A DNA stretch of 64,000 nt from Luteithermobacter gelatinilyticus (GCF_005849285.1 NZ_CP040517.1:1246501-1310500), one strand, 5' to 3'. Numbered from the stretch's first letter, positions 45,574 through 64,000 are shown. Numbers and translations: made by a program. Notes: a model not told the origin generated them from the letters alone.

Positions 45574-45689
45574 ATCCCGTTTCCTTATTGTCTGTCTTCT
45601 TGGTGGCATAGGGAAAAATACGGCTTATGTGGTTTTTGTGCAATGTCTTGCCATGGTTCGGAGATGAAAACCGAACTGGTTCACGGCCC

Positions 45690-48617: not shown

Positions 48618-48639
48618 ACTGTGAATAGGTTGGCTCAAT
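48610..48639 (+). repeat. Dispersed palindromic element, copy 7 (right end missing)
   Basis: TAGAGTGAACTGTGAATA is followed by GGTTGGCTCAAT and then by the reading frame of the MaoC-like gene; the right arm is lost. The TCA at 48635-48637 is the stop codon of that gene on the minus strand. Confidence 0.85.
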
Positions 48640-49060
48640 CGGTATCGAAGGGAAAAACCAGAACAGCACGGGCCGTGAATTTTTCTTCTTCCCACTGGTT
48701 GGTCACCACGATTTTCACGTCAATCCTTTTTTCCGTTGCTGTGTCATATGTATCGGTAATCATGGCTTGTGCCTGTAAGATGTCTTCAAGCTGGGTGAGC
48801 GCCGTAAAGCGCCCCTCATAGGAGCGGATACAGTGCGGGGGGACCTGACTTGTGAGGATATTGGCGGCATAGGCCATGACCAGCATGCCCTGGGCAAAAA
48901 CATCCTCCATACCGGCGGCCCGGGCGAATGCCCGGTCAAGATGAATGGGGTTATGGTCCCCCGAAACGGCGGCATAAGAGGCGAGCAGGGCCCTGGTGAT
49001 CCGGAGCGGGGCCGGGCGGGATAACATCTGGCCGGGCTCAAGATGTTCATGGTTAAGCAT
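48635..49060 (-). CDS. MaoC-like hydratase, C-terminal-half subunit
   Basis: A single hot-dog domain of 141 residues. It has RALLASYAAVSGDHNPIHLD near residue 24, containing the Asp and His of the R-hydratase motif, and VFAQGMLVMAYAANILT. It is expected to hydrate a trans-2-enoyl-CoA. The first 8 bases overlap the end of the preceding MaoC-N-type gene, so the two polypeptides are made together and probably form a heterodimer. The stop codon lies in repeat copy 7, so its natural C-terminus may be altered. Confidence 0.82.
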   Translation of the reverse strand: MLNHEHLEPGQMLSRPAPLRITRALLASYAAVSGDHNPIHLDRAFARAAGMEDVFAQGMLVMAYAANILTSQVPPHCIRSYEGRFTALTQLEDILQAQAMITDTYDTATEKRIDVKIVVTNQWEEEKFTARAVLVFPFDTD

Positions 49061-49565
49061 GGGATTGTTCTCTGGCGGCAGTAGGGGTATGGCGGACCGC
49101 GAAAGTTGATCGCATTTCGGCGATTTTTCCCCCGCTGGTAAGGCGAAGACGATCCCTCGTATCAGTTGTAGTGGTGACAAGGGTTTCTTTGATGATAAAG
49201 GTCAGTGTGCCGCTCTTGCGGCCTGTTTTGTCATAGATGTCGGCGATACGAGAAGAGATTTTGACATTTTCCCCGGCATAAAGGGGAGAATGATAAAGAA
49301 AATATTGTCCCGCATGTAACAGGTCATGCTGATTGACCCCCATGTCAAACAGCCACGCATAGGGATCTGCCTGCATAAAATCCAGACAAAACAGATAGGT
49401 GGGTGGCACCGGCAGGGCAGGGTGTCCCATTGCGCGGGCATACCCTTCCTCCAGATAGAGCGGGTTGTTCTGCCCGGTGGCACGGGCAAAACGCCTCAGG
49501 TTATCTGTCCGGATTGTGACGATATGGCTACCCAGTGTTTTCCCGATATGTTTCCGGTCAATCAT
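49053..49565 (-). CDS. MaoC N-terminal-type dehydratase subunit
   Basis: A 170-residue hot-dog protein of the MaoC_dehydrat_N/FAS1-like group: IGKTLGSHIVTIRTDNLRRF at the N-terminus, PLYLEEGYARAMGHPALPVP near 42, and HAGQYFLYHSPLYAGENVKI near 90. In bacteria that degrade steroids or mesaconyl-type acids, such a domain is the structural partner of an active MaoC half. The ATG at 49565 overlaps the end of the hydrolase gene by 8 bases. The longer open frame up to 49928 is inside the hydrolase gene and is rejected. Confidence 0.82.
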   Translation of the reverse strand: MIDRKHIGKTLGSHIVTIRTDNLRRFARATGQNNPLYLEEGYARAMGHPALPVPPTYLFCLDFMQADPYAWLFDMGVNQHDLLHAGQYFLYHSPLYAGENVKISSRIADIYDKTGRKSGTLTFIIKETLVTTTTDTRDRLRLTSGGKIAEMRSTFAVRHTPTAAREQSHA

Positions 49566-50508
49566 GCTGAAGCTTTGCAACAAATTCTTCCAGGGCTGTG
49601 ATGGCTTCCGGCTCGTCCAACATGGGAGCATGTCCCCGGTTCGGAATGGTGACCGGGAAAAACTGCGGGTGGCGGGCGGCCATTTTTTGTTGTGTTTCGG
49701 CAGACAGAATATCGGACAGTTCGCCGCGAATGGACAGGATGGGAATATTCCCAAGCCGCCCAAAAAGACGCCAAAGGTCCCCAAAAACCAGGCGCTTGAG
49801 AAAAGCCAAAACCCGGGCTTTGAGGACGTGGAGTTTGCTGGTGGGCGCAGCGAAAGGGAGCGCGATGGCGTTGTCATAGGCGGGTATGGGCCGTCCGTTT
49901 GTGTCAAGTTTGTAAGATCGCCGTGCAAATTTCATCCAATCTTCCTGGGTATAGTCCGGAAAAGCTAGGGCATTGATCTGGCGTACCCGTTTGGCGGCTT
50001 CCTCCCACGAACCCACCGGCCGGCCCTTGCCCACATACTGCTTGATCCGCTCAAGACCCGCCGGGTCAATTTCCGGACCGACGTCGTTAAGCACGATGCC
50101 CCTGAACAGATGGGGTTTCATGGCGGCCATCACCATAGCCATCAGGCCACCCATGGAGGTCCCCACAAGGATAATGTTGTTGAGCTTCATATGATCAATG
50201 AGCCTGAACATGTCGGCTATATAATACTTGATGTCATAATGAGCTGGATTAGGGTCATAGTCGGAACGACCGCGGCCGCGCTGATCCGGGGCGATGATCC
50301 GGTACTGCGGAAGCATCTCGGCCAGCGGTTCGAAGTCAAGGGAGTTGCGGGTCAGGCCATGCAGGCAGAGCAGAGGGAGGTCCTGTGCCTCTTGCCCGAT
50401 CGTATCTGAAGCCGTGTCCCGGGCAAAAAGTTTCAGCCCATCCCTGCTGTGGTAATGGAGTTCGTTCTGCCAGACGGTGCCGGTCTCAGTCACAGGTAAT
50501 ATTTCCAT
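49558..50508 (-). CDS. Alpha/beta-fold hydrolase
   Basis: A 316-residue serine hydrolase of the esterase/C-C hydrolase type: LCLHGLTRNSLDFEPLAEML near residue 48 (oxyanion HG), PDQRGRGRSDYDPNP near 74, nucleophile elbow GTSMGGLMAM near 117, and His in NRGHAPMLDEPEAI near 295. The gene overlaps the end of the ligase gene by 23 bases. In this operon it could be a thioesterase, lactonase or ester hydrolase of an intermediate; the sequence does not tell. Confidence 0.85.
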   Translation of the reverse strand: MEILPVTETGTVWQNELHYHSRDGLKLFARDTASDTIGQEAQDLPLLCLHGLTRNSLDFEPLAEMLPQYRIIAPDQRGRGRSDYDPNPAHYDIKYYIADMFRLIDHMKLNNIILVGTSMGGLMAMVMAAMKPHLFRGIVLNDVGPEIDPAGLERIKQYVGKGRPVGSWEEAAKRVRQINALAFPDYTQEDWMKFARRSYKLDTNGRPIPAYDNAIALPFAAPTSKLHVLKARVLAFLKRLVFGDLWRLFGRLGNIPILSIRGELSDILSAETQQKMAARHPQFFPVTIPNRGHAPMLDEPEAITALEEFVAKLQHD

Positions 50509-52036
50509 ATTTCTCTCGCAGGATGTTTTTGAGGATCTTGCCGTTGGGATTGCGCGGCAAATGATTTACAATTTTTAGCATCGAAATTTTTTGCTGTCGG
50601 CCCAGACGGGCATTACACCATTCCCGAATGTCTTCCGCAGGGACGGGTTTTCCCTTGTGCAGAACGACAAGCGCCAGCGGCGTTTCGCCCCACCGGCGGG
50701 ATTTTATTCCGATGACGGCGGCTTCGCTGATCGCATCATGCTGCATCAGGACGGTTTCCAGGTCTTCGGGATAGATATTCTGCCCGCCGGACAGGATCAT
50801 GTCCTTCAATCGTCCGGTGAGATATAAAAATCCTTCTTCGTCAAGATGACCCAGATCGCCAGTTCGCAGCCATTTTTTGCCCGCCTCATCCGTCCAAGTC
50901 GCTTCTTCTGTAGCATCCTTGCGGTTAAAATAACCGGACATCAGGAAACTGCTGCGGCCGACGATCTCCCCTTTTTCACCGGGCGGCATTTCCCGGCCAT
51001 CGGGACCGATAATTTTTAGATCTACGCTAAGGTTGGGTTTGCCCACCGAGGCGGGTCGCAGCAGGCCGTCTTCGGGCTCTATGGTGGTGCTGATCCCTTC
51101 GGTCAGGCCGTATAGCTCGATCAGGGAACCGGAAAGACGGGCACAAAGTTTTTCTTTCAAGGAGGCATGAAGGGGGGATCCACAACTCATCACGGCCCGC
51201 AGAGAGCTTAAATCGAATTTTTCTTGGCCCTTGAGCTCTAAAATTTGTTGGAATTGAACCGGCACCATCGAACAATGGGTGATGCGTAACTCCTGAACGG
51301 CTGTCAGGAAATCCAACGCGTCAAATTTTTTTTGGATGATGAGGGTTCCCCCGTTCAAGAGGGTGCATATCATGGAGACCCAGCTGATATTGGAATAGAG
51401 CCCGATATTGACCAGAGTGCGGATTTTGCCACTATAATGTAAGGCCAGGGAAATGGCCTGGGCAAAATTAAGACGCCCTTGCTGGGTGTGGACAATGCCC
51501 TTGGGCGTACCGGTGGTGCCGGAACTGTAAATGATGTTGATGGGATCGTCGGGCGCGAGGGGGATATCCGGCGGGTCTGAAGGCTGATTTTCTTTCCAGG
51601 TGGCGTAATCAATCCAGTTCTCGTTCACCTCGCCTGCGCAAAGGCGGAGGGGCGCCAGGTCATGGGGAAGGGCGGCGAAGCGGGAAGCCTGATCCGCGGT
51701 CACGATCAGGGCTCTGGCGCCGCAATCTTTAATCATGCGTACAATGTGGTCATCGGAAACGGCAAGATTAAGTGGCACGGCAACACATCCCGCCCGGAAA
51801 ATGCCGAACAGGATTTCGACCATTTCGATGCTGTTGCTCATAACAACAGCTACCCGATCTCCTTTCTTAAGGCCCAGCGCCAAAAGGCCGTGGGCCACTC
51901 TGTTCTGGTTTTCTGCGAACGCCTGCCATGTAACAAGGCGATCTTCGCAAATGAGGGCGGGGTCCGAGGCGCGCCATTTGCCATGAAGGGCAATGATATC
52001 GGGCAATAAGGGCGTTTGAAGGGGAAAAACTGTCAT
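50486..52036 (-). CDS. AMP-dependent acid-CoA ligase
   Basis: An ANL enzyme of about 516 residues: NIIYSSGTTGTPKGIVHT near residue 165 (P-loop), EGISTTIEPEDGLLRPASVG near 310, LRTGDLGHLDEEGFLYLTGR near 398 and the lysine LPRNPNGKILKNILRE at the end. It activates an acid, plausibly aromatic or medium chain, for CoA-dependent degradation. I place the start at the ATG at 52036 (MTVFPLQTPLLPDI), not at 52144, since the upstream residues are unlike the family. A hairpin lies in the gap to the TonB gene. Confidence 0.86.
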   Translation of the reverse strand: MTVFPLQTPLLPDIIALHGKWRASDPALICEDRLVTWQAFAENQNRVAHGLLALGLKKGDRVAVVMSNSIEMVEILFGIFRAGCVAVPLNLAVSDDHIVRMIKDCGARALIVTADQASRFAALPHDLAPLRLCAGEVNENWIDYATWKENQPSDPPDIPLAPDDPINIIYSSGTTGTPKGIVHTQQGRLNFAQAISLALHYSGKIRTLVNIGLYSNISWVSMICTLLNGGTLIIQKKFDALDFLTAVQELRITHCSMVPVQFQQILELKGQEKFDLSSLRAVMSCGSPLHASLKEKLCARLSGSLIELYGLTEGISTTIEPEDGLLRPASVGKPNLSVDLKIIGPDGREMPPGEKGEIVGRSSFLMSGYFNRKDATEEATWTDEAGKKWLRTGDLGHLDEEGFLYLTGRLKDMILSGGQNIYPEDLETVLMQHDAISEAAVIGIKSRRWGETPLALVVLHKGKPVPAEDIREWCNARLGRQQKISMLKIVNHLPRNPNGKILKNILREKYGNITCD

Positions 52037-52104
52037 CGGGATCTTGCCTGTGTTTTTCTTGCGGTTTCTGAAATTGGGGGCAACGGTCACAAAATCTTGG
52101 AGAT

Positions 52105-52133
52105 GATGACGGAACCGGCCTGGTTCCGTCATC
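52105..52133. other. Perfect 12-bp-stem hairpin in the operon gap
   Basis: GATGACGGAACC (52105-52116) pairs exactly with GGTTCCGTCATC (52122-52133) around GGCCT. It is between the stop of the TonB receptor and the start of the ligase. No T-run follows, so it may be an mRNA processing or partial termination site that lowers expression of the distal genes. Confidence 0.6.
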
Positions 52134-52147
52134 CCTGTGTCCATAGG

Positions 52148-54463
52148 CTAGAAACTATATCCTACGGTAAAGGTTACGGTTCGCGGCGGGCCGAAAAAGG
52201 CCGTGATATTGTTTTCCAGTCCCAGCGGAGTATAGGGCGCGCCGAAATTATAACCGGCCGTTTTGTAGCGCTTGTCGGACAGGTTTTTACCATGCAGCCC
52301 CAGGCTCCAGACACCCTCGTTGTCGGTCCAGACCAGACTGGCATCAAACAGGCTGTAGGCGTCTTGGTCGATTTCCGGCACTGGCATTTCAAACTGAACG
52401 ACGGACCCTTTGTGGGACCAACTGCCGGACAGCGACAATTTACCGTCCGCCAGGGGCACGCTATAGGTTAGTTGCAGGAAAGACATGAATTCCGGGGTGT
52501 TCTGAACCTCCCGTTCATCGGCGATATTCACACCGTTGAAAATCCATTCATTGATTTCGGCGTCCAATACACTCAGACTGCCGCGCAGGACAAGATTATC
52601 GGTGATCAGAAGGGTGCCTTCGGCCTCGATGCCTTTGATGGTGGCGGAACCCGCGTTGGTGACCGTGCCGACAAAATCGTCGTTGACACCGTCGCCATTG
52701 GTATCAATGGGCAGGGATCCCGGAATCTGCATGTCACTATAATCGCTGTAAAAGGCCGCCAGATTCAGGCGCAGACGTCCGTCCGCCAGGGTGGATTTCA
52801 CCCCGATTTCATAGGTCGTCAGGTTTTCCGGTTCATAGCCGTTTTCCACATCTTCGCCGCCGGCCACCAGATTGGCACCGCGCGGGTCAAAGCTGCCGGC
52901 CTTGAAGCCCTTGGAGAAAGATGCATAGGTGGTGGCTTCCTCTGAAATCGCATAATCCAGAACCACGCGCGGCGTAAATTTATTGAAGGTCCGTTCCGCC
53001 TCAAAATCACTGGAGGTGGCGAGAAGAATGGCGGCGTCGTTGCCAAAAAAGATGGACGGCACGCCGAGGAAAGACTGCCGCAACACATCCGCGGAACGTT
53101 TGTCGCTGGTATAGCGCCCGCCAAGGGACAGGGACAGGCGGTCGGTCAAGTCATAGGTGAAATCGGCGAAAATGGACCAGGCTTCGGTGTCCACCACCCC
53201 ACCGGTATAGGCGGTCAGTTCGCTGCCAAAGGCGATACGGCCCAGCTGCCCCAGCACCACGTCAAAATCGTTGGCAGCCGACGCATTAAGATAATAAAAA
53301 CCGATCAGGCCTTTGATCCGGTCCGAAGTATAGGAAATCTGGAACTCCTGACTGAATTGCTGGTTGTCGTAGATGACGGCAGCATCCAGATCATCAACTT
53401 CCAGGCTGTCAAAATCAATCACTGATTCCGTATAATCTTCCCGATAGGCGGTGATGGACTTGAAGCTGATGGTTTCACTGACCTGCCATTCCAGAAGGCC
53501 GTTGATCCCTTTGACCTTTACTTCGTTATTGCCGTCAATACCGGAAGTGGAGGCGTTGATTTCAGCCCCGGCGCGGGTGTCAAAGACATTGTCCAGGACT
53601 GGCGCACCGCTGACAGCGCCGGGATTGACCCGGTGGCCGTGGCGGGCGTTGGAGTCATCGTCCGTATAATCGCCACTGAGGCGGATGAACACATCTGGCG
53701 TGGGCTCCCATTCCAGGCTGGCGCGGAACGCGAGGATTTCCTTGTTATAATTTTCCGCGCCGGTGGTCAGGTTGGTGCCATATCCGTTGCGGTTCAGGGA
53801 CGCCACGGCACCACCGATCCGCAAAGTGTTGGTCAGGGGGACGGACCCCTTGGCCACGCCGTCAATCTGGCCGAAGTTGCCTACGGAAGCGCGCAACGAC
53901 AGGCTGGGATCGGTGGAAAGGCGACGGGTGACATATTTAATGGCCCCGCCCACCGCGTTACGGCCATAAAGTGTGCCCTGTGGGCCCCGCAGCACCTCGA
54001 TCCGTTCCACATCATAAATATCCAGAAGGGTGCCCTGGGGACGGGCCAGATATACGTCGTCCAGATAAATCGCCACCCCCTGTTCAAACCCGGCCAGCGG
54101 GTCCTGCTGGCCCACCCCGCGAATAAAGGCGGTCAGGGTACTGTTGGTGGCGCGTGAGGGTTCCAGGGTGACGCTGGGCGCGCTTTGCGCCAGTTCGGAA
54201 ATATCCCTGATGCCGTTGAATTCCAGATCCTTACCGGTAAAGGCCGTAATGGCCACGGGTACTTCCTGCAGGGATTCATCCCGGCGGCGCGCTGTCACGA
54301 TAATCTCTTCCAGGGTCAGGGCCGTTTCCGCCTCTGCCTTTGCCTCTGCATCATTGATGTCATTGTCTCCCATAGCCAGGCTGGGCGCTGCACGGGTCAT
54401 ATCAAGAACGAAAACGCTGGCCAGCAGAGCGGCTTTCATGGGTAAGGTTTTAAGCAGTCTCAT
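52148..54463 (-). CDS. TonB-dependent outer-membrane receptor
   Basis: A 771-residue receptor. Signal peptide at residues 1-29 (ALLASVFVLDMTRAAPSLAM). The TonB-box region is EEIIVTARRRDESLQEVPVA, then the plug domain (PQGTLYGRNAVGGAIKYVTR) and the beta-barrel, ending in aromatic F (VTFTVGYSF). The sequence type is the one common in sphingomonads and marine alphaproteobacteria for uptake of hydrophobic or aromatic compounds, rather than siderophores. It is the first gene of a TetR-controlled operon with a ligase, hydrolase and MaoC pair. The ligand is unknown. Confidence 0.92.
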   Translation of the reverse strand: MRLLKTLPMKAALLASVFVLDMTRAAPSLAMGDNDINDAEAKAEAETALTLEEIIVTARRRDESLQEVPVAITAFTGKDLEFNGIRDISELAQSAPSVTLEPSRATNSTLTAFIRGVGQQDPLAGFEQGVAIYLDDVYLARPQGTLLDIYDVERIEVLRGPQGTLYGRNAVGGAIKYVTRRLSTDPSLSLRASVGNFGQIDGVAKGSVPLTNTLRIGGAVASLNRNGYGTNLTTGAENYNKEILAFRASLEWEPTPDVFIRLSGDYTDDDSNARHGHRVNPGAVSGAPVLDNVFDTRAGAEINASTSGIDGNNEVKVKGINGLLEWQVSETISFKSITAYREDYTESVIDFDSLEVDDLDAAVIYDNQQFSQEFQISYTSDRIKGLIGFYYLNASAANDFDVVLGQLGRIAFGSELTAYTGGVVDTEAWSIFADFTYDLTDRLSLSLGGRYTSDKRSADVLRQSFLGVPSIFFGNDAAILLATSSDFEAERTFNKFTPRVVLDYAISEEATTYASFSKGFKAGSFDPRGANLVAGGEDVENGYEPENLTTYEIGVKSTLADGRLRLNLAAFYSDYSDMQIPGSLPIDTNGDGVNDDFVGTVTNAGSATIKGIEAEGTLLITDNLVLRGSLSVLDAEINEWIFNGVNIADEREVQNTPEFMSFLQLTYSVPLADGKLSLSGSWSHKGSVVQFEMPVPEIDQDAYSLFDASLVWTDNEGVWSLGLHGKNLSDKRYKTAGYNFGAPYTPLGLENNITAFFGPPRTVTFTVGYSF

Positions 54464-54503
54464 GAGTGGTGTTCCCTATATAATTTATCATTCTGAAATA
54501 AAC

Positions 54504-54543
54504 TGGACATTTGTCCAATTATTATTACTGGACGATTGTCCAG
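54504..54543. promoter_or_regulatory. Two TetR-type operators between receptor and regulator
   Basis: TGGACATTTGTCCA (54504-54517) and CTGGACGATTGTCCAG (54528-54543) share the half-site TGGAC with a four-base spacer. Their centres are about 25 bp apart. They lie between the divergent TonB receptor and TetR genes, 41 bp upstream of the receptor start, as expected for autoregulated repression. Confidence 0.8.
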
Positions 54544-54625
54544 GAGTCAATAATGTTTTGTGTCGGTCGGGGAAATGGGGTTATATGACGAACAGGAGAG
54601 GTCAACAGACAGGCCAGGAAAGAAG

Positions 54626-55321
54626 ATGTCGATGTCAGAACTCGCAAAAAACAGAACTGGTAAAAAAAATTCCAGAAAAGAACTTATTCTTGATGCGGCG
54701 GAGGAATTGTTTTCCATTCACGGTTATGACGGCGTAACCTTGCGGCAGGTGTCAAAAAAGGCGGGCGTCAAGCTGGCGCTGATTGATTATCATTTTGGGC
54801 GAAAACGGGATCTATTTGAAAGTGTTTTTCTGAGGCGGGCCAAGATCCTGAACGATGCCCGTCTGAAGGCATTGGAAGAATGTGAAAGGGCGGCGGGACC
54901 GGAAGGGCCTTCAGTGGAAAGTATTATTGAAGCTTTTTTGCGGCCATTGGAGTTTGTTCAGGAAAGTGAGGATCCGGGCTGGAAGCATTATTGTGCTCTA
55001 GTGGCATATATCAACAATTCTTCCGTATGGGGCAACGTTATGATCGGCAAACATTTTAATCCATTGGTGCTGCGGTTCATCGAGGCCTTGAAAAAGGCCA
55101 TGCCAGGGGTCCGGGAAGAGAAAATTTTCTGGGGCTATCATTTCCTGTCCGGGGCCCTGACCCTGACCTTTGCGCAAACCGGGCGCATTGACGAACTGTC
55201 CGGCGGGCTATGCAAGTCGTCCGACTTTCAGGCAATTTATAATCGCATGATCCCGTTCTTTTCCGCCGGATTCAAGGATATTGAAAAAGACAATGCTGAC
55301 AAGACTCTGAACGGGGCCTGA
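54626..55321 (+). CDS. TetR-family transcriptional regulator
   Basis: A repressor of about 231 residues. The helix-turn-helix is in RKELILDAAEELFSIHGYDG and VTLRQVSKKAGVKLALIDYH near residues 17-60. The ligand domain continues with a C-terminal region like that of the CerR/PsrA-type (FLRPLEFVQESEDPGWKHYC). The ATG at 54626 follows AGGAAAGAAG; an upstream GTG at 54560 is unlikely. It is divergent from the TonB receptor operon and convergent with the acyl-CoA dehydrogenase gene; the operators found between them show it probably represses the receptor operon until a substrate or CoA ester binds. Confidence 0.87.
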   Translation: MSMSELAKNRTGKKNSRKELILDAAEELFSIHGYDGVTLRQVSKKAGVKLALIDYHFGRKRDLFESVFLRRAKILNDARLKALEECERAAGPEGPSVESIIEAFLRPLEFVQESEDPGWKHYCALVAYINNSSVWGNVMIGKHFNPLVLRFIEALKKAMPGVREEKIFWGYHFLSGALTLTFAQTGRIDELSGGLCKSSDFQAIYNRMIPFFSAGFKDIEKDNADKTLNGA

Positions 55322-55374
55322 AAGGCAAAGCCGGGGCATGAAGCTCACCTTGCCCTGAACCTGTCGATGGGATC

Positions 55375-56577
55375 TCAGACACCCCAGTGCCAGAAGTCGG
55401 CACTATTGCTCATGAACTGGCGGGCGAGCACCATTTTATGCACTTCGCTGGCCCCGTCCACCAGCTTGGCCTGGCGGGCATAACGGTAAATCCATTCCAG
55501 GATACTGTCCTTGGAATACCCCTGTGCGCCCATCAGCTGGATGGCGGTGTCCGCCGCCTTGTTCAGGGTGTCGGCCACATGGATCTTGGCCATGGAGACC
55601 TCCTTGCGGGCGAAATCGCCCTGATCCAGCATCCAGGCGGCGTGCATGGTCAGCAGGCGGCCGATCTGGATGTCCTTGGCCACTTCGCCGACCATCCATT
55701 GCACCCCTTCATGATCGGCGAGAGTGGAGCCGAAGGCTTTGCGTTCCTGCACATATCCCGAGGCGGTTTCCATGGCCCGGCGCGCAAGCCCCAGCCAGCG
55801 CATGCAATGGGTGAGCCGCGCCACACCCAGGCGGATCTGGGTGGCCTTCAGCCCGTCGCCCACTTCCATCAGCCGGTCTTCATCGGGGATTTCCAGCCCG
55901 TCAAAGACGATTTCACAGTGTCCGCCATGTTCTTCCGGGCCCATGATGCCGATGCGCCGGTCAATGCGCCAGCCCGGCTGGTCCCGGTGAAACAGAAAGG
56001 CGCTAAGCCCCCGGCGCGGATCGTCGGACGTGCGAGCGACGAGAATAAAATGGCTGGCAATTTCGGCCCCGGTGATGAACCATTTGCGCCCGTGAATGAC
56101 CCAGTTGTCGCCTTGTCGGGTGGCAGTGGTTTTCATCATGCCCGCCGGATCGGATCCGGATCCGGGCGCGGGTTCGGTCATGGCAAACGCTGACCAGACC
56201 TTGCCGTCGATGATCGGCTGGAGCCATTTTTGTTTTTGTTGCTCTGTCGCGACCTTGTTCAGTAGGATCATATTACCGTCGTCCGGCGGGGCGGCATTAA
56301 ACACTGCTGGCCCAAACAACGACCGGTTCATTTCTTCGTAACAGGCCGCCATGCCCACTATCGGCAGTCCCTGGCCGCCGCGGTCTTTGGGCATTTGCAA
56401 GGCCCAGAGTCCTTCGGCCCGGGCTATTTTGCGCAGTCGGTCAAGTTCCTCGATTTTCAGGTTTTCGTGGGCATCGCGCGCCTCGGGCTGATTTTCCACC
56501 GGGATTATATGCCGGCTGACAAAATCGCGGATCCGGCGGCGGTATTCTTCGATTTCCGGGGAGAGAGCAAAATTCAT
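55375..56577 (-). CDS. Acyl-CoA dehydrogenase
   Basis: A 400-residue flavoprotein. The FAD segments read AFAMTEPAPGSGSDPAGMMK near residue 134 and WFITGAEIASHFILVART. The C-terminal catalytic region is LEWIYRYARQAKLVDGASEV, whose Glu near 380 may be the base. It introduces the 2,3 double bond in an acyl-CoA that the MaoC pair could then hydrate. It is the last gene of the co-directional run from the carotenoid oxygenase gene; the SDR gene lies 11 bp upstream. Confidence 0.88.
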   Translation of the reverse strand: MNFALSPEIEEYRRRIRDFVSRHIIPVENQPEARDAHENLKIEELDRLRKIARAEGLWALQMPKDRGGQGLPIVGMAACYEEMNRSLFGPAVFNAAPPDDGNMILLNKVATEQQKQKWLQPIIDGKVWSAFAMTEPAPGSGSDPAGMMKTTATRQGDNWVIHGRKWFITGAEIASHFILVARTSDDPRRGLSAFLFHRDQPGWRIDRRIGIMGPEEHGGHCEIVFDGLEIPDEDRLMEVGDGLKATQIRLGVARLTHCMRWLGLARRAMETASGYVQERKAFGSTLADHEGVQWMVGEVAKDIQIGRLLTMHAAWMLDQGDFARKEVSMAKIHVADTLNKAADTAIQLMGAQGYSKDSILEWIYRYARQAKLVDGASEVHKMVLARQFMSNSADFWHWGV

Positions 56578-56588
56578 TTTCCAATCCC

Positions 56589-57353
56589 TTAGATTAATCT
56601 CACATGATGGCCGCCATCGACGGGCAGGGCGACACCGTTGATAAAACTTCCGGCCTCGCTGGCCAGAAGTAGGGCAGGGCCCACCAGTTCTTCAAGCTGA
56701 CCCAGCCGGCCGGGCGGCGTCTTCCGGACATAAGCCTGGCCTTTTGTCGATGAGAAAAAGGCGTCGTTCATTTCCGTCTGGAAATATCCGGGACACAGGG
56801 CATTGACCCGGATGCCCTTGCCAAACAGCTCCAGTGCCATGGTGCGGGTCATCTGGATGACACCGGCCTTGGATGTGGCATAAAGGGTATATCCCGGCTG
56901 GGTGCCGACCCCCAGGATGGAGGAGATGTTGATGATTGAGCCGTTCATCTTGTGAGCAAGCATTCTGGCGGCGGCTTCCTTGGCGACCCGCCAGACGGCC
57001 TTGAGATTGACGTCCATGACAAAATCCCAGTCGCCTTCCGCCTGCTCCCAACTTTGCCCGTTTCGCGCCACGCCAGCATTGTTGATCAGCACCGTGACCG
57101 GCCCGAAGGCCTGTTCTGCCGCCACGAAGGCCTGCCGCACACTGTTGGGACTGGTGACGTCCATGCTTGCGGCAAGGGCATTTTCCCCGATTTCTCCGGC
57201 CAGCAAATCCAGGTTTTCCCGACGCCGGGCGCAGAGCACCACATTCGCTCCCCGCGTGGCAAAGGCGCGGGCCAGATGAGCGCCGATGCCGGATGAGGCG
57301 CCGGTGATCAGTACGGTTTTATCGGTAACGTCAAAGTCGGTGTTATGAGACAT
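56589..57353 (-). CDS. Short-chain dehydrogenase/reductase
   Basis: An NAD(P)-dependent oxidoreductase of about 254 residues: TGASSGIGAHLARAF near residue 16, LINNAGVARNGQ near 92, Ser in INISSILGVG and the YATSK active-site motif near 165. Its sequence type is close to 3-hydroxyacyl-CoA or acetoin-type SDRs. The start at 57353 overlaps the end of the aldehyde dehydrogenase gene by 11 bases, so translation is coupled. It could oxidise the hydroxyacyl-CoA formed by the MaoC hydratase. Confidence 0.87.
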   Translation of the reverse strand: MSHNTDFDVTDKTVLITGASSGIGAHLARAFATRGANVVLCARRRENLDLLAGEIGENALAASMDVTSPNSVRQAFVAAEQAFGPVTVLINNAGVARNGQSWEQAEGDWDFVMDVNLKAVWRVAKEAAARMLAHKMNGSIINISSILGVGTQPGYTLYATSKAGVIQMTRTMALELFGKGIRVNALCPGYFQTEMNDAFFSSTKGQAYVRKTPPGRLGQLEELVGPALLLASEAGSFINGVALPVDGGHHVRLI

Positions 57354-59022
57354 GGGGATACCTGATTTGGATGATACGAAAACGGTTGGCGACAAAGGCA
57401 AGGTCGGTGAGGCAGGCATTGCCCGCTGGATTCAGCCCCGTTACGTGATAGTCGCTATAGGCCGCCGCGAAATTGAGCGGCATGGGGCCGGTGAGATTAC
57501 AGGTGAGTGACGCGCCCGCATTGGCGAAGGCCATCTGTCCTTTGGCCAGGAAATCAGGATCGGTGCTGTAGAAATAACTGGCGATGGCGCCGTGCGTGCG
57601 GGCGTCACTGGTGGCCTGTTGCAGGGCCTGCTCGCGGGTTTCGGATTTGATGATGAAGGCGATGGGCGCGAAAACCTCTTCCTGATAGATGTCGCGGTCT
57701 GTAACCTCCAGCTCAATCATGAGCGGGGTCGCGGTGCGCGCCTCGGGAAAATGCGGATGGGCATAAGGAGTCGATTGCCGCAATATCCTGCCCCTCTCGC
57801 GGCCAATCCGTTCATACTGTTCCAGGAGTCTGAGGCTGTTTTCCGACTGGATGGCGCCAAACAGGTTGGGGGCCAGCTTTTCATTACGGGCGCGGACTTC
57901 GACCGCCTCCACCAATTTTGCGACCACCTCGTCATAGGGCACCTTTTGTCCAGCTACAGTGATTCCCAATGCCGGGATATGGATGTTCTGGGGGCTGGTG
58001 CACATCTGGGCGGAAAACAGGCACAGGGTCTGGGCAATGCTGCCGAGTGTGGCATCCAAGTTGTCCACAGATTCCAGCACCACGCTATTGACTCCGGCGG
58101 TTTCCGTATAGACCAGCGCATTGCGGATATTCTGTTCGATCCAGGTCCCGAAACGGGCGCTACCTGTATAATCCACAATTTTGGTGGCCGGATGGGTCAT
58201 CAGTTCCTTGGTAATCGGCGCATCCGCCAGGTCCGGAGCAAGGGTGACCAGATTGGGATCATGCCCCAGTTCACTGAGCACCTGGCGCATGGTTTTTACA
58301 GCAATGGCCATTGGTAGAATGCCATTGGGATGTGGTTTGACGATCACCGGATTGGCCGTCGCCAGATTGGCCATGATCGCCGGATAGGCGTTCCAGGCGG
58401 GGAAGGTGGCGCAGCAGATCACAATGGCCACGCCACGCGGCCGCAGAAGATATCGTTTTTCCAGTCGGACATCCTGTCTGCCGAACTGTTTTTCCCATTG
58501 TGCGGTGGCGGGAATTTCCGTCATGGCGCGATAGGCATGAGCCAGCGCCTCCAGTCCTCTATCAAGGGCGTTGGAACCACTACCGGCAAAACCCATGGGA
58601 AAGCTCTGCCCGGCCGTATGCATGGTAGCATGGGCATTTTCGAAAGCCTGTTCTGAGAGTTTCGTCAGGATTTCCAGTAATACGCCACAGCGTTCCTCAA
58701 CGCTTTGTTCCTGCCAGCTTTCCTGGGCTTTTCCAGCGGCCTTAAACAGGACTTCGATGTCCGGTTTGGGATAATCAATACCCAGCGGCGTTTGGGTGTA
58801 GGGGGAAATTTCATGGCCCGTGCGCCCGATGGTGCCGGGTTGTTCCAGATCAAAACTCTTGCCCAGATGGGCTTCAAAGGCGGCCTGACCCTGCCTGATT
58901 TTTTCCTCGCCGTGAAGGCGGGGACTGGGATTGTCGATGAAGGGACTCCAGTTATAACGTTTCCGGCAGGCCTCCAGGGCCTTGTTTAATGTTTCCTGAT
59001 GCTTTCTGAAAATATCACTCAT
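57343..59022 (-). CDS. PaaN-type aldehyde dehydrogenase
   Basis: A 559-residue enzyme related to PaaN of phenylacetate degradation rather than to common aldehyde dehydrogenases of about 480. The N-terminal WSPFIDNPSPRLHGEEKI and GSNALDRGLEALAHAYRAMT near 155 are PaaN-like. Cofactor residues appear in VKPHPNGILPMAIAV; the Glu is in VYTETAGVNSVVLES near 308 and the nucleophile Cys in AQMCTSPQNIHIP near 340. It would oxidise a ring-opened or side-chain aldehyde to an acid. It lacks the hydratase domain of PaaZ. Confidence 0.83.
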   Translation of the reverse strand: MSDIFRKHQETLNKALEACRKRYNWSPFIDNPSPRLHGEEKIRQGQAAFEAHLGKSFDLEQPGTIGRTGHEISPYTQTPLGIDYPKPDIEVLFKAAGKAQESWQEQSVEERCGVLLEILTKLSEQAFENAHATMHTAGQSFPMGFAGSGSNALDRGLEALAHAYRAMTEIPATAQWEKQFGRQDVRLEKRYLLRPRGVAIVICCATFPAWNAYPAIMANLATANPVIVKPHPNGILPMAIAVKTMRQVLSELGHDPNLVTLAPDLADAPITKELMTHPATKIVDYTGSARFGTWIEQNIRNALVYTETAGVNSVVLESVDNLDATLGSIAQTLCLFSAQMCTSPQNIHIPALGITVAGQKVPYDEVVAKLVEAVEVRARNEKLAPNLFGAIQSENSLRLLEQYERIGRERGRILRQSTPYAHPHFPEARTATPLMIELEVTDRDIYQEEVFAPIAFIIKSETREQALQQATSDARTHGAIASYFYSTDPDFLAKGQMAFANAGASLTCNLTGPMPLNFAAAYSDYHVTGLNPAGNACLTDLAFVANRFRIIQIRYPHVS

Positions 59023-59031
59023 GGGGTGCCT

Positions 59032-59472
59032 CTATTTTTTAAACCAGATCAGGCGGTGATGACGGATCAGGTCGGTTTCTGGCAAAACCTCGTTGGCGCT
59101 TAAAGTCAGTTTATTGTCCTGAAACGCCATCTGGCGTACCTGTTCCGTCCCCAGCATATTGGGGTTGAGGGCATGTTGGACAGTATGGGTCACGGTTTGT
59201 CCATTGATGCGGTAGGGGCCCGCATAACTGAAATTGCTTTCAAAGGCGGCGATTTTCTCTTCGGGCGTGGCGCGACGCAGGCTGCCGCCGGAAAGTCGCG
59301 GTCTGTGGGCGGCGGAAATATTGGCGGACATGTATCCGTCTTCGGTATAGACCAAAATGCCGATGGCGTCAGGGCCATAGGGATAACTGTCGGGACGGTC
59401 GTCGGAATAGGAAATCTTCCATTCCAGCAAGTGCCAGGTCCCGACCAGCGGGTTTTCCAGAGAGGGTGTCAT
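59032..59472 (-). CDS. Lipocalin-like domain protein
   Basis: A 146-residue protein of the lipocalin-like (pfam13924-type) group: LVGTWHLLEWKISYSDDR at the N-terminus, YGPDAIGILVYTEDGYMSAN near 35 and EEKIAAFESNFSYAGPYRIN. No signal peptide is seen. The fold binds hydrophobic molecules, and a relative has been linked to fungal and bacterial small-molecule processing. It is 9 bp before the PaaN-type gene, so it belongs to the operon. Its role is unknown. Confidence 0.78.
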   Translation of the reverse strand: MTPSLENPLVGTWHLLEWKISYSDDRPDSYPYGPDAIGILVYTEDGYMSANISAAHRPRLSGGSLRRATPEEKIAAFESNFSYAGPYRINGQTVTHTVQHALNPNMLGTEQVRQMAFQDNKLTLSANEVLPETDLIRHHRLIWFKK

Positions 59473-59496
59473 AAGCCTTCACGTTTTTTTGAAAGA

Positions 59497-59519
59497 CGGG
59501 ACGGGATTCCCCCGTCCCG
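59497..59519 (-). terminator. Hairpin after the second TonB receptor gene
   Basis: CGGGACGGG and CCCGTCCCG form a perfect 9-bp stem around ATTCC in the 60-bp gap before the lipocalin-like gene. On the minus strand it is followed by TCTTTC, a weak tail, so partial termination is possible. Confidence 0.6.
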
Positions 59520-59532
59520 ACAAAAGAGGTGA

Positions 59533-61824
59533 TTAGTTAAACTGCCAGGTGAGTGTGACGCCATAGCTGCGCGGCAGGCCATATACGACGGCGGCACTGT
59601 TGGTCAGACCAAAGGGGCCGCGTCCATCAATGCCATGCACCCGATACAGTTCATCGGTAAGATTCTTGCCCCACAGCTTGACTTCCAGGCCCTGCTGGAC
59701 AAATTCCAGCGCCACATAGGCGTCCAGCAACGAACGGCTGCCGTCTCCCACCAGAATACGTCCATCATCAAGGCGGAAATTATCCGGGTTAAAGAAAATT
59801 TCGTCGCGATAGGCATAATCGCCCTGCAAGGTCAGGACTCCCCAATCGCCCAGATCCCGTTGATAGGTCATGGCGATGTTGAAGCTGTGCTCCGGGGAGC
59901 GGGTCAGGCGATTGCCGGAGAAATCTTCGCCGTCTTCCGTGATATAGGAAGAATAGCTGGCGTCGAGATAAGCATAATTGGCGTTGAACGTCAGTTCTTT
60001 GGTCAAGGCCGCGGTAAGTTCGGCTTCAAATCCTTTACTGGTGGCATCGGCCGCATTGTCGATGACCAGTTCTGCGCCGTTGACTAGCTGGAAAACCTGC
60101 AAGTCCGTGTAGTCAATATGGAAGGCGGTCAGATTGAGGCGCACCTGTCCGTCCAGCCACATGGATTTTAGCCCCACTTCCCATTGTTTGGCTTTTTCCG
60201 GATCAAACCCCCGCAGGGCTGCGGCCTCGGAGGAAGCGGAGCCGTTAAAACCGCCGCTTTTGAAGCCTTCGGAGTAGCTGACATAGACCATGGCATCTTC
60301 GGTAACTTTATAGTCCAGGGTGGCTTTCGGGGTGAAGGAGTTCCAGCTTTGGCTGGGGCTCACGTCATAGGGCGCGGCCAGAAAACCGCCCGTGGGATCA
60401 AACCCGAAGCCGTTGATTTCGGCGTCTTTTTTCTCATGGGTATAACGGGCGCCAAGGGTAATGCTGATCTGTTGCGTCAGATCATAGGTGGCCTGACCGA
60501 AGGCGGCATAACTGTTGGTGGTGTTGAATTGGTCAAAAAAGATGTTAAAGGGGGCCTGTCCCCAGGGTTGACCGGTGAGCGGCAGAAGCTGCCCCCAGGT
60601 CAGCCCCGGTACGGGAGAGGGGGTAACCATGACGGCGGCATCATTGCCGCGGAAATCATTATTGTCCAGCCGGTCGATTTTTTCATTGAAATAATACAGG
60701 CCGGCGATCCATTTAAACCGACCGTCTTCGGACACATCGCCCAGGCGCAGTTCCTGGGAAAACTGTTTGGCGTCCTCGTCCACATTATTGATCACCAGAT
60801 TGGCGTCAGAGCCGGAAAAATCCTCCTGGAACTCAAAGTCACTGTTGCGGTAGGCGGTAATGGAGGTGAGTTCCCCTAGTCCGGTTTGCCAGGTGATTTT
60901 GCCGGAAACGCCCCAGACGTCGCGGTTCTGGAATCCGTTGACGGTTTTTTCATTGACAAAGGGGTCTTCGCTACAGGGGCTTGCCCCCAGAGGCTGCCCA
61001 GGGGCGAACCACGGGAAAAAGACAAACTGTTCCCCGAAACAGTCACGGCTGTTGCCGGCCAGCCGGTCGCGGGAATAATCGGCGGACAGCAGAAATTCCA
61101 CCTCTTCATTGGGGGTGAATAAAAGCTGGGCGCGGGCGGAAAAGTTGTTTTCATCGCTCAATTTTCTGCCGTCGATGGAACTTGTGCTATGGCCGTCGCG
61201 TTCCACTTTGGACAGGCTCAGTTTGGCGTTGACCGTGTCGCTGAGTGCGCCGTTCACCAGACCGCGTAACTCGTAACGGTTAAAATTGCCATAGGAGCCC
61301 CGCAGCTTGACCTGCGTCTCGGCGGATGGTTTTTTGGTAATGATGTTTACCGCTCCGCCCACAACGTTTTTGCCGTAAAGTGTGCCCTGGGGACCGCGTA
61401 GCACTTCAAGGCGTTCCAGGTCCATCAGGTCAAAATCAGAACCGCCGGCGCGGCCTACATAAACTTCATCGACAAAAACGCCAACCGATTGATCGCCAAA
61501 AGCGGAATCATCCGTGGAGCCGATGCCGCGGATAAACAGTTGCGGCTGGGCCATATTGAAGCGGGACATGGTGAATCCCGGTGTGCGGGTGCTGACTTCA
61601 TCAAGAGCCACAATACCGGAATCTTCCAGAAACTTACCGGACATGGCGGTCACGGCAATGGGCACTTCTTGCAGATTTTCAGATCTTTTCTGGGCTGTCA
61701 CCACAATTTCTTCCAAAGTGACGGCTTCTTCGGCATATGCTTTATTCGACGTGTTCGCGATTGTAGCGACAAGGGTTGCCGCCAAGGTCGTGCTTAATAG
61801 TTTGTGTTTTGTTTTCAGTGTCAT
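59533..61824 (-). CDS. TonB-dependent outer-membrane receptor
   Basis: A second receptor, 763 residues. Signal peptide KLLSTTLAATLVATIANTSN with cleavage near NKAYA. Then VTLEEIVVTAQKRSENLQEV, the plug with SAFGDQSVGVFVDEVYVGRA and PQGTLYGKNVVGGAVNIITK, and a C-terminal beta-barrel ending SYGVTLTWQFN. It resembles the first receptor only in general plan and may recognise a different ligand. The start has GGGAGG. Between the esterase and lipocalin-like genes it belongs to the same catabolic run, and so probably imports that esterase's substrate or product. Confidence 0.92.
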   Translation of the reverse strand: MTLKTKHKLLSTTLAATLVATIANTSNKAYAEEAVTLEEIVVTAQKRSENLQEVPIAVTAMSGKFLEDSGIVALDEVSTRTPGFTMSRFNMAQPQLFIRGIGSTDDSAFGDQSVGVFVDEVYVGRAGGSDFDLMDLERLEVLRGPQGTLYGKNVVGGAVNIITKKPSAETQVKLRGSYGNFNRYELRGLVNGALSDTVNAKLSLSKVERDGHSTSSIDGRKLSDENNFSARAQLLFTPNEEVEFLLSADYSRDRLAGNSRDCFGEQFVFFPWFAPGQPLGASPCSEDPFVNEKTVNGFQNRDVWGVSGKITWQTGLGELTSITAYRNSDFEFQEDFSGSDANLVINNVDEDAKQFSQELRLGDVSEDGRFKWIAGLYYFNEKIDRLDNNDFRGNDAAVMVTPSPVPGLTWGQLLPLTGQPWGQAPFNIFFDQFNTTNSYAAFGQATYDLTQQISITLGARYTHEKKDAEINGFGFDPTGGFLAAPYDVSPSQSWNSFTPKATLDYKVTEDAMVYVSYSEGFKSGGFNGSASSEAAALRGFDPEKAKQWEVGLKSMWLDGQVRLNLTAFHIDYTDLQVFQLVNGAELVIDNAADATSKGFEAELTAALTKELTFNANYAYLDASYSSYITEDGEDFSGNRLTRSPEHSFNIAMTYQRDLGDWGVLTLQGDYAYRDEIFFNPDNFRLDDGRILVGDGSRSLLDAYVALEFVQQGLEVKLWGKNLTDELYRVHGIDGRGPFGLTNSAAVVYGLPRSYGVTLTWQFN

Positions 61825-61877
61825 AGATGACCTCCCTTTAGTAGTACTTCAGCCAATTTTCCCGATGGTTTACATTG

Positions 61878-63428
61878 TTATTCACAGCGATAACTCATGG
61901 ACAGATCGGGATTTCTGCCCTGAATCAGTGTTGCGGTCTTGGGGTATGCACAGATGGGGCGGCTTCGGATGACGTCGCCTTTCCCGGATTTCTGTACAGC
62001 ATTGAGTGTGTCCGGAGCCTGGTCCCGCTCCAGCCAGTCTTCCAGGGTCGCAATCGGATCGAACAGATCCGGACCCGTGCCCGGCACGCCCCAGCAATGG
62101 CCATGACCGGGCACCATAAACATCCGGAAATAGGTCTGCGTGATTTCCATGGAGCCGTCGCGGGTCGTGACTTGCTCGTAATACTGAACGGTGCGCTGCG
62201 GCAGAATCAGGCTGTCGGCCCAGCCGTGCCAAAGCAGAAGTTTCCCGCCATTTTTGCGAAAGGCGGAGAGATCCGTGTCGGTGGCGTCCAGAAGGTCTGG
62301 AAGCGAGGAGTGCGTTAGCACTGCCGGATGACGATTGAAATCAAATGTTGGGGCTTTCAAATCAGGGACGTTCAAAAGATGTGCCGCGAGTTTCAGATAA
62401 TTTTCCCCTGCGCGCTGTCCCCAGCCGGGCCTATTTTCATCGCCGGTAATCCACAACGGCCAATTATGTTCGCCGCCCGGCGCAATGCCAAAAAATAATG
62501 GCCTGCCGTCCTTATCCTGTGCGCCTTGGTATAATTTCCAGGCGGCGGCAATTTCATCGGAAGTCAGGCAGGGAAGAACTGTCCTGGCGTTGCAGGACAA
62601 TTTGTCCAGGTCAGGCTTGCACCGGCCGGGTCGGCTGATAAGGCCGTCTTTTTGACCATCCAGGGCATCACATTGCGCCAGGATCTCTTTTTGCAAAAGC
62701 GCGGCTGTTCTTGGCGTCAAAATCCGGTCGCCGTCGGGTGTGGTGTTGCTGCGGGACAGCCAGGCGCCGTGAATGCCGGCATTGCCGGTCATGTCCAGAA
62801 TGGGACCACCGACCAGAATGCCGTCAAACAGTTCCGGATATCGTTGAGCCGCCACGAGCCCCAACCGACCGCCATTGGAGCAACCGGAATAAAGTTTTCT
62901 GTGGGCAGGCTTTTGATAAAAAGAATGAGTCAGTTCCTCCAGCCCCTGGATGGTCAAAGGCAAGAGTTTGTGGGCGAAAATTTCCAGGGCTTCCGGATCG
63001 TCATAAGCCCAGCCGGTCTTATGGTTTTGTCCTTTATGGCCGCCATCCGTGGTGATAACGGCATATCCTTTTTTCAGGGCCGGGAGGATGCTGTTGGAAA
63101 AACCGGGTTTGTCCGGCAGTAGCGTACCGCAAAAGCCGCCACATCCCGCCATGAACAGCGCCCCGTTCCAGTCTGCGGCCGGCAGGCGGGCCTCAAAGCC
63201 GATTTTCCCGGCAATCTGGCCACGAATTTTGCAGAAGGCCGGCAGGGTGGACGAGGCCGGGACCATGTCTGCGGTCTGCACGGTAAGGTCCTTGCGGGCC
63301 AATGTCTTCATGTCACTGCAGGTCCCGGCGGCTGCTATAGCGCCGGAAGAGGCAGTGATAGAGACAGCCGCAGACACTAAAAGGCCCGCAAGAAACCCCC
63401 CGACCCTCGAAGACGTACTGCCGTTCAT
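61878..63428 (-). CDS. Tannase/feruloyl esterase-family protein
   Basis: An exported 516-residue serine esterase. A signal peptide is at residues 1-35 (FLAGLLVSAAVSITASSGAI). The nucleophile loop YSGCSNGGR near 185, the Asp in LLWHGWADSLILP near 400 and the His in PGHGHCWG near 445 show the family CS-D-HC arrangement, in which Cys residues next to Ser and His form a disulfide. Cysteines in AGCGGFCGTLLPD near 95 are also expected. The family cleaves esters of hydroxycinnamic and gallic acids or bis-hydroxyethyl terephthalate. The preferred ester is unknown. Confidence 0.88.
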   Translation of the reverse strand: MNGSTSSRVGGFLAGLLVSAAVSITASSGAIAAAGTCSDMKTLARKDLTVQTADMVPASSTLPAFCKIRGQIAGKIGFEARLPAADWNGALFMAGCGGFCGTLLPDKPGFSNSILPALKKGYAVITTDGGHKGQNHKTGWAYDDPEALEIFAHKLLPLTIQGLEELTHSFYQKPAHRKLYSGCSNGGRLGLVAAQRYPELFDGILVGGPILDMTGNAGIHGAWLSRSNTTPDGDRILTPRTAALLQKEILAQCDALDGQKDGLISRPGRCKPDLDKLSCNARTVLPCLTSDEIAAAWKLYQGAQDKDGRPLFFGIAPGGEHNWPLWITGDENRPGWGQRAGENYLKLAAHLLNVPDLKAPTFDFNRHPAVLTHSSLPDLLDATDTDLSAFRKNGGKLLLWHGWADSLILPQRTVQYYEQVTTRDGSMEITQTYFRMFMVPGHGHCWGVPGTGPDLFDPIATLEDWLERDQAPDTLNAVQKSGKGDVIRSRPICAYPKTATLIQGRNPDLSMSYRCE

Positions 63429-63502
63429 GAATGCTCCCTGTGCGCATTATCAATTTAATCTGTTATGACGTGAGGCGATCTTTGTTGTTATGGTTCTGTA
63501 AA

Positions 63503-63543
63503 GACCGGCCCCGGTCGGGACGAAGGCCCTGTCAGCCTTCGTC
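63503..63543 (-). terminator. Tandem hairpins after the carotenoid oxygenase gene
   Basis: Two adjoining stems: GACCGG/CCGGTC (63503-63516) and GACGAAGGC/GCCTTCGTC (63519-63543). They lie 11 bp beyond the oxygenase stop. The T-rich tail is short (TCTTTA), so termination is plausible but not certain. Confidence 0.6.
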
Positions 63544-63553
63544 GGATCGGATT

Positions 63554-64000
63554 TTATTTCCAGATGTCTTCGCCACGGACCCAATTGGAATGGAACCCAT
63601 AGGGCAGGCGATGCGGCAGATGGATACGGGCGATGGGCCCCTGCTTGACATTTTTCGCATCAAAGATCAGGCAATATGATTTCCAGGTTTTGGCGTCTGT
63701 GGTGAAGGTAATCAGATAACCGTCATCTTCGGGGTCGTTCCGGGTGGCGCCTTTGCGCGGGGCAAAGGGAGTTTCGCTGCCGAAAACGTCTTTGCCATAA
63801 TTATACCGTTCATAACCGCCGCTTTCGGTGTCATATTTGATCAGTCCGCCGAATGCCAGCGTGCGGGCCTCATCCGGGGCTGTCATGATATACTGATTAT
63901 AGGAATATCTGTTTTTCACACCGCCATAGAGCGGATTGATGCGGGGAAATTCCGTATTCAGGGTGCAGATGTCGTGCTCCACCACTTCGCCGGTTTTCAT
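63554..64000 (-). CDS. Carotenoid oxygenase / lignostilbene-type dioxygenase, N-terminus cut by window edge
   Basis: The visible 148 residues are the C-terminal part of a nonheme iron dioxygenase of the carotenoid cleavage family. Diagnostic is RLPYGFHSNWV near the end, holding the last His iron ligand, and the blade-like FGGLIKYDTESGGYERYNYG and NDPEDDGYLITFT segments. The first ATG read (64000) is probably internal, since family members are about 480-500 residues. Members oxidatively cleave C=C bonds in carotenoids, stilbenes or phenylpropenes. The genes beside it favour a lignin-derived or phenolic substrate. Confidence 0.85.
   Translation of the reverse strand: MKTGEVVEHDICTLNTEFPRINPLYGGVKNRYSYNQYIMTAPDEARTLAFGGLIKYDTESGGYERYNYGKDVFGSETPFAPRKGATRNDPEDDGYLITFTTDAKTWKSYCLIFDAKNVKQGPIARIHLPHRLPYGFHSNWVRGEDIWK

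Follow-up and report, generated by a model that had tools for sequence, protein, structure and literature searches.

We analysed 64,000 nucleotides of the closed 3.15-Mb genome of Luteithermobacter gelatinilyticus (GCF_005849285.1 NZ_CP040517.1, bases 1246501–1310500; hereafter the window, with positions counted from its first letter), in which a carotenoid cleavage oxygenase (CCO) gene lies among genes for uptake and CoA-dependent catabolism. We consider it probable that the CCO and the genes that follow it (operon A) form one half of a catabolic regulon linked to an HxlR-type regulator and split between two loci, that the oxygenase at its centre is not a lignostilbene enzyme, and that the neighbouring operon B is a separate unit. 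This reading draws on gene content, conservation, co-location, a shared upstream motif and motif residues in the enzymes.

Open reading frame (ORF) calling and Pfam/NCBIfam profile searches recovered every gene that an initial annotation of the window had listed, from the two TonB receptors to the TetR regulator and including the MaoC and FAS1-type hydratase pair. That annotation described two facing runs; in fact, all cluster genes lie on the minus strand, and the TetR gene (54560–55321) alone is on the plus strand. Operon A (65.1 to 55.4 kb) comprises CCO–tannase–TonB receptor 2–lipocalin–PaaN-like aldehyde dehydrogenase–short-chain dehydrogenase/reductase (SDR)–acyl-CoA dehydrogenase (ACAD), while operon B (54.5 to 48.6 kb) comprises TonB receptor 1–ligase–alpha/beta hydrolase–FAS1-type hydratase–MaoC hydratase, with TetR divergent. 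The window edge cuts the CCO gene (PF03055), so that only its 3' part is present (63554–64000); extension to the right, as the initial annotation had recommended, completed the gene (512 amino acids, to 65092) and added, upstream of it, a gene for a 600-amino-acid AMP ligase (65287–67089), after which rpoH bounds the cluster. The order in the direction of transcription is ligase, operon A genes, inverted TetR gene, operon B genes.

A conserved module divided between two loci

In a relative of the same family (G021), the order PaaN–lipocalin–TonB receptor 2–CCO–ligase is kept, with identities to the window proteins of 65, 55, 72, 67 and 51%, respectively; the tannase, the SDR, the ACAD and operon B are absent from that locus. 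There, the CCO set directly adjoins genes for HxlR, a member of the nitronate monooxygenase family (NMO), a DSBA-like protein and two thiolases, and a genome from another family (G011) has nearly the same gene set. Using the G021 thiolase and NMO as queries, we found matches of 75 and 68% at 2.082–2.087 Mb of the L. gelatinilyticus chromosome. This second locus (2081413–2088270), in which HxlR is divergent from NMO–ligase–DSBA (HCCA-isomerase-like)–SCP2 thiolase–thiolase, holds the other half of the gene set. The two thiolases encoded there score above the relevant NCBIfam cut-offs (PRK06289 and PRK08242); for the NMO, FabK is the nearest model, with a score below the cut-off.

A profile search of genome contigs, based on an alignment of five CCOs, detected 80 loci in Halieaceae, alphaproteobacteria, actinobacteria, Chloroflexi and myxobacteria. 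When the ORFs around the CCO were clustered into families for 100 loci from several phyla, with the window itself counted for its own families, the neighbours included an SCP2-type thiolase at 45 loci, an AMP ligase at 33, a classical thiolase at 32, HxlR at 32 (in two groups), NMO at 20, PaaN at 17, TonB receptor 2 at 10, the lipocalin at seven and the tannase at five. Judged by gene content, the core of operon A corresponds to one half of a conserved module that marine gamma- and alphaproteobacteria share with actinobacteria, Chloroflexi and myxobacteria.

Assessment of 149 genomes of the order showed the CCO in 38, the SCP2 thiolase in 29 and both in 28; the CCO was present in 28 of the 29 genomes with the thiolase as compared with 10 of the 120 others (Fisher exact 8e-21, uncorrected for relatedness). 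The two genes are within 15 kb of each other in 27 of the 28 genomes that have both, the exception being this genome, where 772 kb separates them.

Related CCO modules are also plasmid-borne, with integrases or transposases nearby, in Cupriavidus necator (pENH92) and Sphingopyxis granuli (pRW412b); the latter includes a Rieske oxygenase, an SDR and an aldehyde dehydrogenase. The CCO gene set appears, from these plasmid copies, to be mobile. We found no description of the CCO–thiolase–HxlR gene set in the open-access literature; this recurrent set is widespread and apparently undescribed.

Candidate operators and the probable separation of operon B

The sequence TAACTTTCATAAAA is common to the gap between CCO and ligase and the gap between HxlR and NMO. 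Versions of the motif AACTTTCATAAAA were found upstream of module genes in other genomes, in 16 of 275 regions as compared with 7 of 1172 other regions; 200 permuted versions of its core averaged 1.3, with 10 as the highest count. An HxlR-type matrix was then trained on other genomes only, with training sites picked by their likeness to the core in this genome. Its top three sites in the extended window (83 kb) are at 65229 (27.7 bits) and 65190 (26.9 bits), both in the CCO promoter gap, and at 67137 (19.6 bits), before the 600-amino-acid ligase gene, which has in this way its own candidate site. At the second locus the best site, in the HxlR/NMO promoter, reaches 34.0 bits; the highest scores in 20 Markov sequences of equal length were 9.8–21.2 bits. 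The motif that precedes both halves is a candidate HxlR operator. A lone match at 44824 (18.1 bits), inside a CoA-transferase family III gene (44428–45609), is probably due to chance.

The TetR regulator has a PsrA-like C-terminal domain (PF17939, 3.2e-35; NF053516 PsrA, 3.3e-29, below cut-off), which suggests an acyl-type ligand. Two tandem copies of the palindrome TGGAC-N4-GTCCA (54504–54542, with copies at 54504 and 54529) lie in the gap between the TetR and TonB receptor 1 genes and nowhere else in the extended window, and are probable TetR operators. A search with the PsrA-type consensus [GC]AAAC..GTTT[GC] gave no match.

We considered whether TetR might govern both operons, with operon B providing the hydratase and ligase steps for the products of operon A. 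The operons are adjacent and co-directional, and a hydratase is encoded in operon B and not in operon A. Nevertheless, the TetR palindrome is confined to the one gap, and the HxlR-type motif lies before CCO and ligase and not before operon B. Furthermore, none of the 80 CCO loci gave a match to the window's MaoC hydratase, FAS1-type hydratase, alpha/beta hydrolase, TonB receptor 1 or TetR; the 10-kb flanks searched would take in no more of operon B than its near end. This absence is strong, but not complete, evidence for separation, and we regard joint control as rather unlikely. The alpha/beta hydrolase was rejected as a marker of operon B, being too common (119 of the 149 genomes of the order). 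The single pathway that the initial annotation drew through both runs is not upheld by these comparisons, which bear out an outcome that it had itself named as refuting: in other genomes the operon A core recurs and operon B genes are not alongside it, and the two operons have different putative operators.

We propose that operon B serves separately for the uptake and beta-oxidation of acyl lipids and is controlled by its own PsrA-like TetR. Such a role would involve TonB receptor 1 (52148–54463; PF00593/PF07715), an AMP-dependent acyl-CoA ligase that is of the fatty-acyl type by its best model (50486–52144; PRK06187, 396 bits against a cut-off of 476), the alpha/beta hydrolase (49558–50508; PF00561), and the FAS1_DH-type (49053–49571; PF13452, 3.1e-30) and MaoC-type (48635–49060; PF01575, 8.3e-19) hydratase subunits. 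A DesA-like fatty acid desaturase (366 bits against a cut-off of 500) is encoded at 46491–47609, between CoA-transferase and NYN-domain genes.

The oxygenase and its substrate

The window protein retains the four Fe-binding His residues of the CCO fold, as do nearly all of 73 relatives. In lignostilbene dioxygenases, Tyr101 and Lys134 hydrogen-bond the 4-hydroxyl of the stilbene (PMC8191317). The window CCO has Val at position 101 and, depending on the alignment, Trp or Tyr at 134; among the 73 relatives in its clade, position 101 is Val, Leu or Ile in 61 and position 134 is Lys in none. Nearly all members of the clade have also lost the first second-shell Glu of carotenoid oxygenases, in most cases with Gln, Asn, Leu or Met in its place.

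The initial annotation had favoured an aromatic or stilbene substrate. On that view, a single pathway would handle an aromatic ester or a compound like lignostilbene, with an esterase acting outside the cell and the CCO inside to yield aromatic aldehydes. Consistent with this, aromatic catabolism is known to involve both the CCO and the tannase/feruloyl-esterase families, related modules are carried by the Cupriavidus and Sphingopyxis plasmids, the latter with a Rieske oxygenase, and the score of the CCO against the lignostilbene-alpha,beta-dioxygenase model (NF053778, 242 bits) is near that against the 8'-apo-carotenoid 13,14-cleaving dioxygenase model (NF052295, 249 bits). However, both scores are far under the respective cut-offs of 800 and 675, and the two residues that would hold the phenol are replaced in the window protein and across the clade. 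In addition, the search of the genome showed no intradiol dioxygenase and a single LigB-family protein, HpaD (gentisate, homogentisate and benzoyl-CoA routes being outside this search), so that products of the vanillin or ferulate type would lack a protocatechuate route. Operon B is not linked to the CCO in related loci, and thiolases go unmentioned in the published accounts of stilbene pathways that we compared. Taken together, these observations leave an aromatic substrate with little likelihood.

The comparison with the stilbene pathways of Sphingobium SYK-6 and Novosphingobium aromaticivorans (LsdA–LsdH, NOV1) is instructive in both directions. Cleavage of a C=C bond to aldehydes by a CCO-family enzyme and oxidation by an aldehyde dehydrogenase are common to these pathways and the system proposed here, and TonB uptake is known there. 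In contrast, the phenol clamp is replaced in the window enzyme, no protocatechuate ring-cleavage gene was found in the genome, and the module adds thiolases, a FabK-like NMO, HxlR and a PaaN-like aldehyde dehydrogenase.

With apocarotenoid-cleaving CCOs (NACOX1, MtCCO, SaCCO and PpCCO) and plant CCD1, the window enzyme has the fold and the Fe site in common (PMC5133782). CCD1 is its closest solved structure by both sequence and fold, although identity is only ∼32% over the fold match, the second-shell Glu is replaced, the NF052295 cut-off is missed and the gene sits in a CoA catabolic operon. The fold search was dropped as a guide to substrate, because template modelling (TM) scores were 0.81–0.88 for nearly all matches, carotenoid and stilbene enzymes alike. 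That the CCO turns the cell's own carotenoids into retinal or apocarotenoid signals, as its family and its nearest relative CCD1 might suggest, is very improbable: the only candidate phytoene synthase, the sole SQS_PSY protein of the genome, adjoins a TrmFO-like gene and looks NDUFAF6-like (both judged by eye), so that endogenous carotenoids are unlikely and the cell probably does not make the substrate itself, and the TonB receptor in the operon and the linked thiolases indicate uptake and catabolism. The substrate class that we favour, from the residues and the gene context, is a lipophilic, non-phenolic alkene, apocarotenoid- or isoprenoid-like.

Accompanying enzymes and a proposed pathway

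The tannase/feruloyl esterase family hydrolase (61878–63428; PF07519, 2.4e-99) has a CS-D-HC motif, with GCSNGG at residue 182, the Asp in GWADSL at 402 and GHGHC at 441, and its N-terminus resembles a signal peptide. Among solved structures, those closest to it are MHETase and fungal feruloyl esterases, which share the family and the motif; the hydrolase accompanies the CCO in few loci only. Downstream of it are TonB receptor 2 (59533–61824; PF00593/PF07715), which is conserved beside the CCO as described above, and a Lipocalin_5 protein of 146 amino acids (59032–59472; PF13924, 5.8e-34) that recurs next to CCO and PaaN and is predicted to form a beta-barrel (AlphaFold2 pLDDT 93). Matches of the latter in the PDB were weak (TM about 0.4–0.5), and no function was drawn from them.

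The aldehyde dehydrogenase (57343–59022) belongs to the family of phenylacetate PaaN, exceeding the cut-off of TIGR02288 (622.6 against 578.75 bits), yet it falls in a CCO-linked group that the tree splits from canonical PaaN with 100/100 support. The canonical PaaN of this genome is encoded at 2.214 Mb, beside genes resembling paaH, I, J and K; PaaA/PaaC are encoded at 0.597 Mb. Membership of the phenylacetate pathway was rejected for the window enzyme because of its separate clade and because the canonical copy sits elsewhere with paa-like genes. The 600-amino-acid ligase resembles PRK12582, although at 587 bits it is under the cut-off of 777, and we do not claim it as a feruloyl-CoA synthase.

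The last two genes of operon A encode the SDR (56589–57353; PF13561; an internal ATG was taken as the start, giving an overlap of ∼11 nt with PaaN) and the ACAD (55375–56577). Enzymes of the LvaC and ACAD10/11 type convert phosphorylated 4-hydroxyacyl-CoA to enoyl-CoA (PMC12440821, PMC11342911). The window ACAD has their features, namely HCMR at residue 257 with an upstream Arg (Arg-x7-HCMR) and, at 374, a catalytic Asp where Glu is usual. It shares 71% identity with an ACAD of Azospirillum that is itself flanked by SDR, phosphotransferase and DUF6285 genes; the SDR is 47% identical to the SDR adjoining the LvaC-type ACAD and phosphotransferase in Azospirillum. These features indicate that the SDR–ACAD pair may act on a 4-oxo or 4-hydroxy acyl-CoA. 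Unlike its counterparts in Azospirillum and Paroceanicella, the window ACAD has no adjoining LvaA-type kinase or DUF6285 gene. Another cluster of ACAD, phosphotransferase and SDR genes lies at ∼1.489 Mb; its ACAD is ∼35% identical to the Azospirillum enzyme and gave no match to the HCMR pattern.

The pathway that we propose is predicted from this gene content, and the binding of HxlR and the substrate class are likewise predictions. TonB receptor 2 would take in a lipophilic alkene, possibly esterified, and the tannase-family esterase might strip the ester outside the cytoplasm. The cytoplasmic CCO would then cleave a C=C bond to give aldehydes or ketones, the PaaN-like dehydrogenase would oxidize an aldehyde, and the AMP ligases would form CoA esters, whose chains could be shortened by enzymes of the second locus, 772 kb away: the FabK-like NMO, the SCP2-type thiolase and the second thiolase. 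The SDR and the LvaC/ACAD11-type ACAD would fit a 4-keto- or 4-hydroxyacyl-CoA branch, for example for levulinyl-type isoprenoid fragments. We speculate that an isoprenoid 1,5-diene cleaved twice would yield levulinaldehyde, whose oxidation and activation would feed this branch. The outline in the initial annotation, from import and ester cleavage through C=C cleavage and oxidation to CoA activation and degradation, fits the gene content, with thiolysis as the degradation step and ester cleavage outside the cell only a possibility; the aromatic substrate is not supported, nor is the single pathway.

Several observations weigh against the reading of operon A as half of a split, isoprenoid-directed regulon. 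The motif core was taken from this genome, so that the core match of the matrix is partly circular, its training sites having been chosen by likeness to that core; independent support for the motif comes from the site positions, the flanking columns and the permutation control. The co-occurrence statistic takes no account of relatedness among the 149 genomes. The tannase and lipocalin are present in a minority of loci, and the SDR and LvaC-type ACAD were seen with the CCO in this genome only; no LvaA-type kinase was found among the cluster ORFs, APH proteins being encoded elsewhere in the genome. Without the first second-shell Glu, the CCO may possibly have unusual or weak activity. Finally, the Rieske oxygenase in the Sphingopyxis plasmid copy leaves room for an aromatic substrate.

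The data outline a probable regulon open to testing, in which one regulator would act through a predicted operator on two distant operons, with an enzyme set recurring from marine gamma- and alphaproteobacteria to mycobacteria. They also indicate that CCO genes should not be placed in lignin–stilbene metabolism on the strength of the family name alone. More tentatively, and at a level at which we would not yet expect to be right, the module may represent an HxlR-controlled system, present in several phyla, for the assimilation of environmental isoprenoid alkenes (apocarotenoids, pieces of algal xanthophylls or similar compounds) by CCOs of a new subfamily whose second shell is altered, together here with an LvaC/ACAD11-type enzyme acting on levulinyl-like CoA fragments. 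If the substrate is indeed apocarotenoid or isoprenoid, this would be a bacterial recycling route for a large environmental carbon pool, for which we found no described gene set in the open-access literature.

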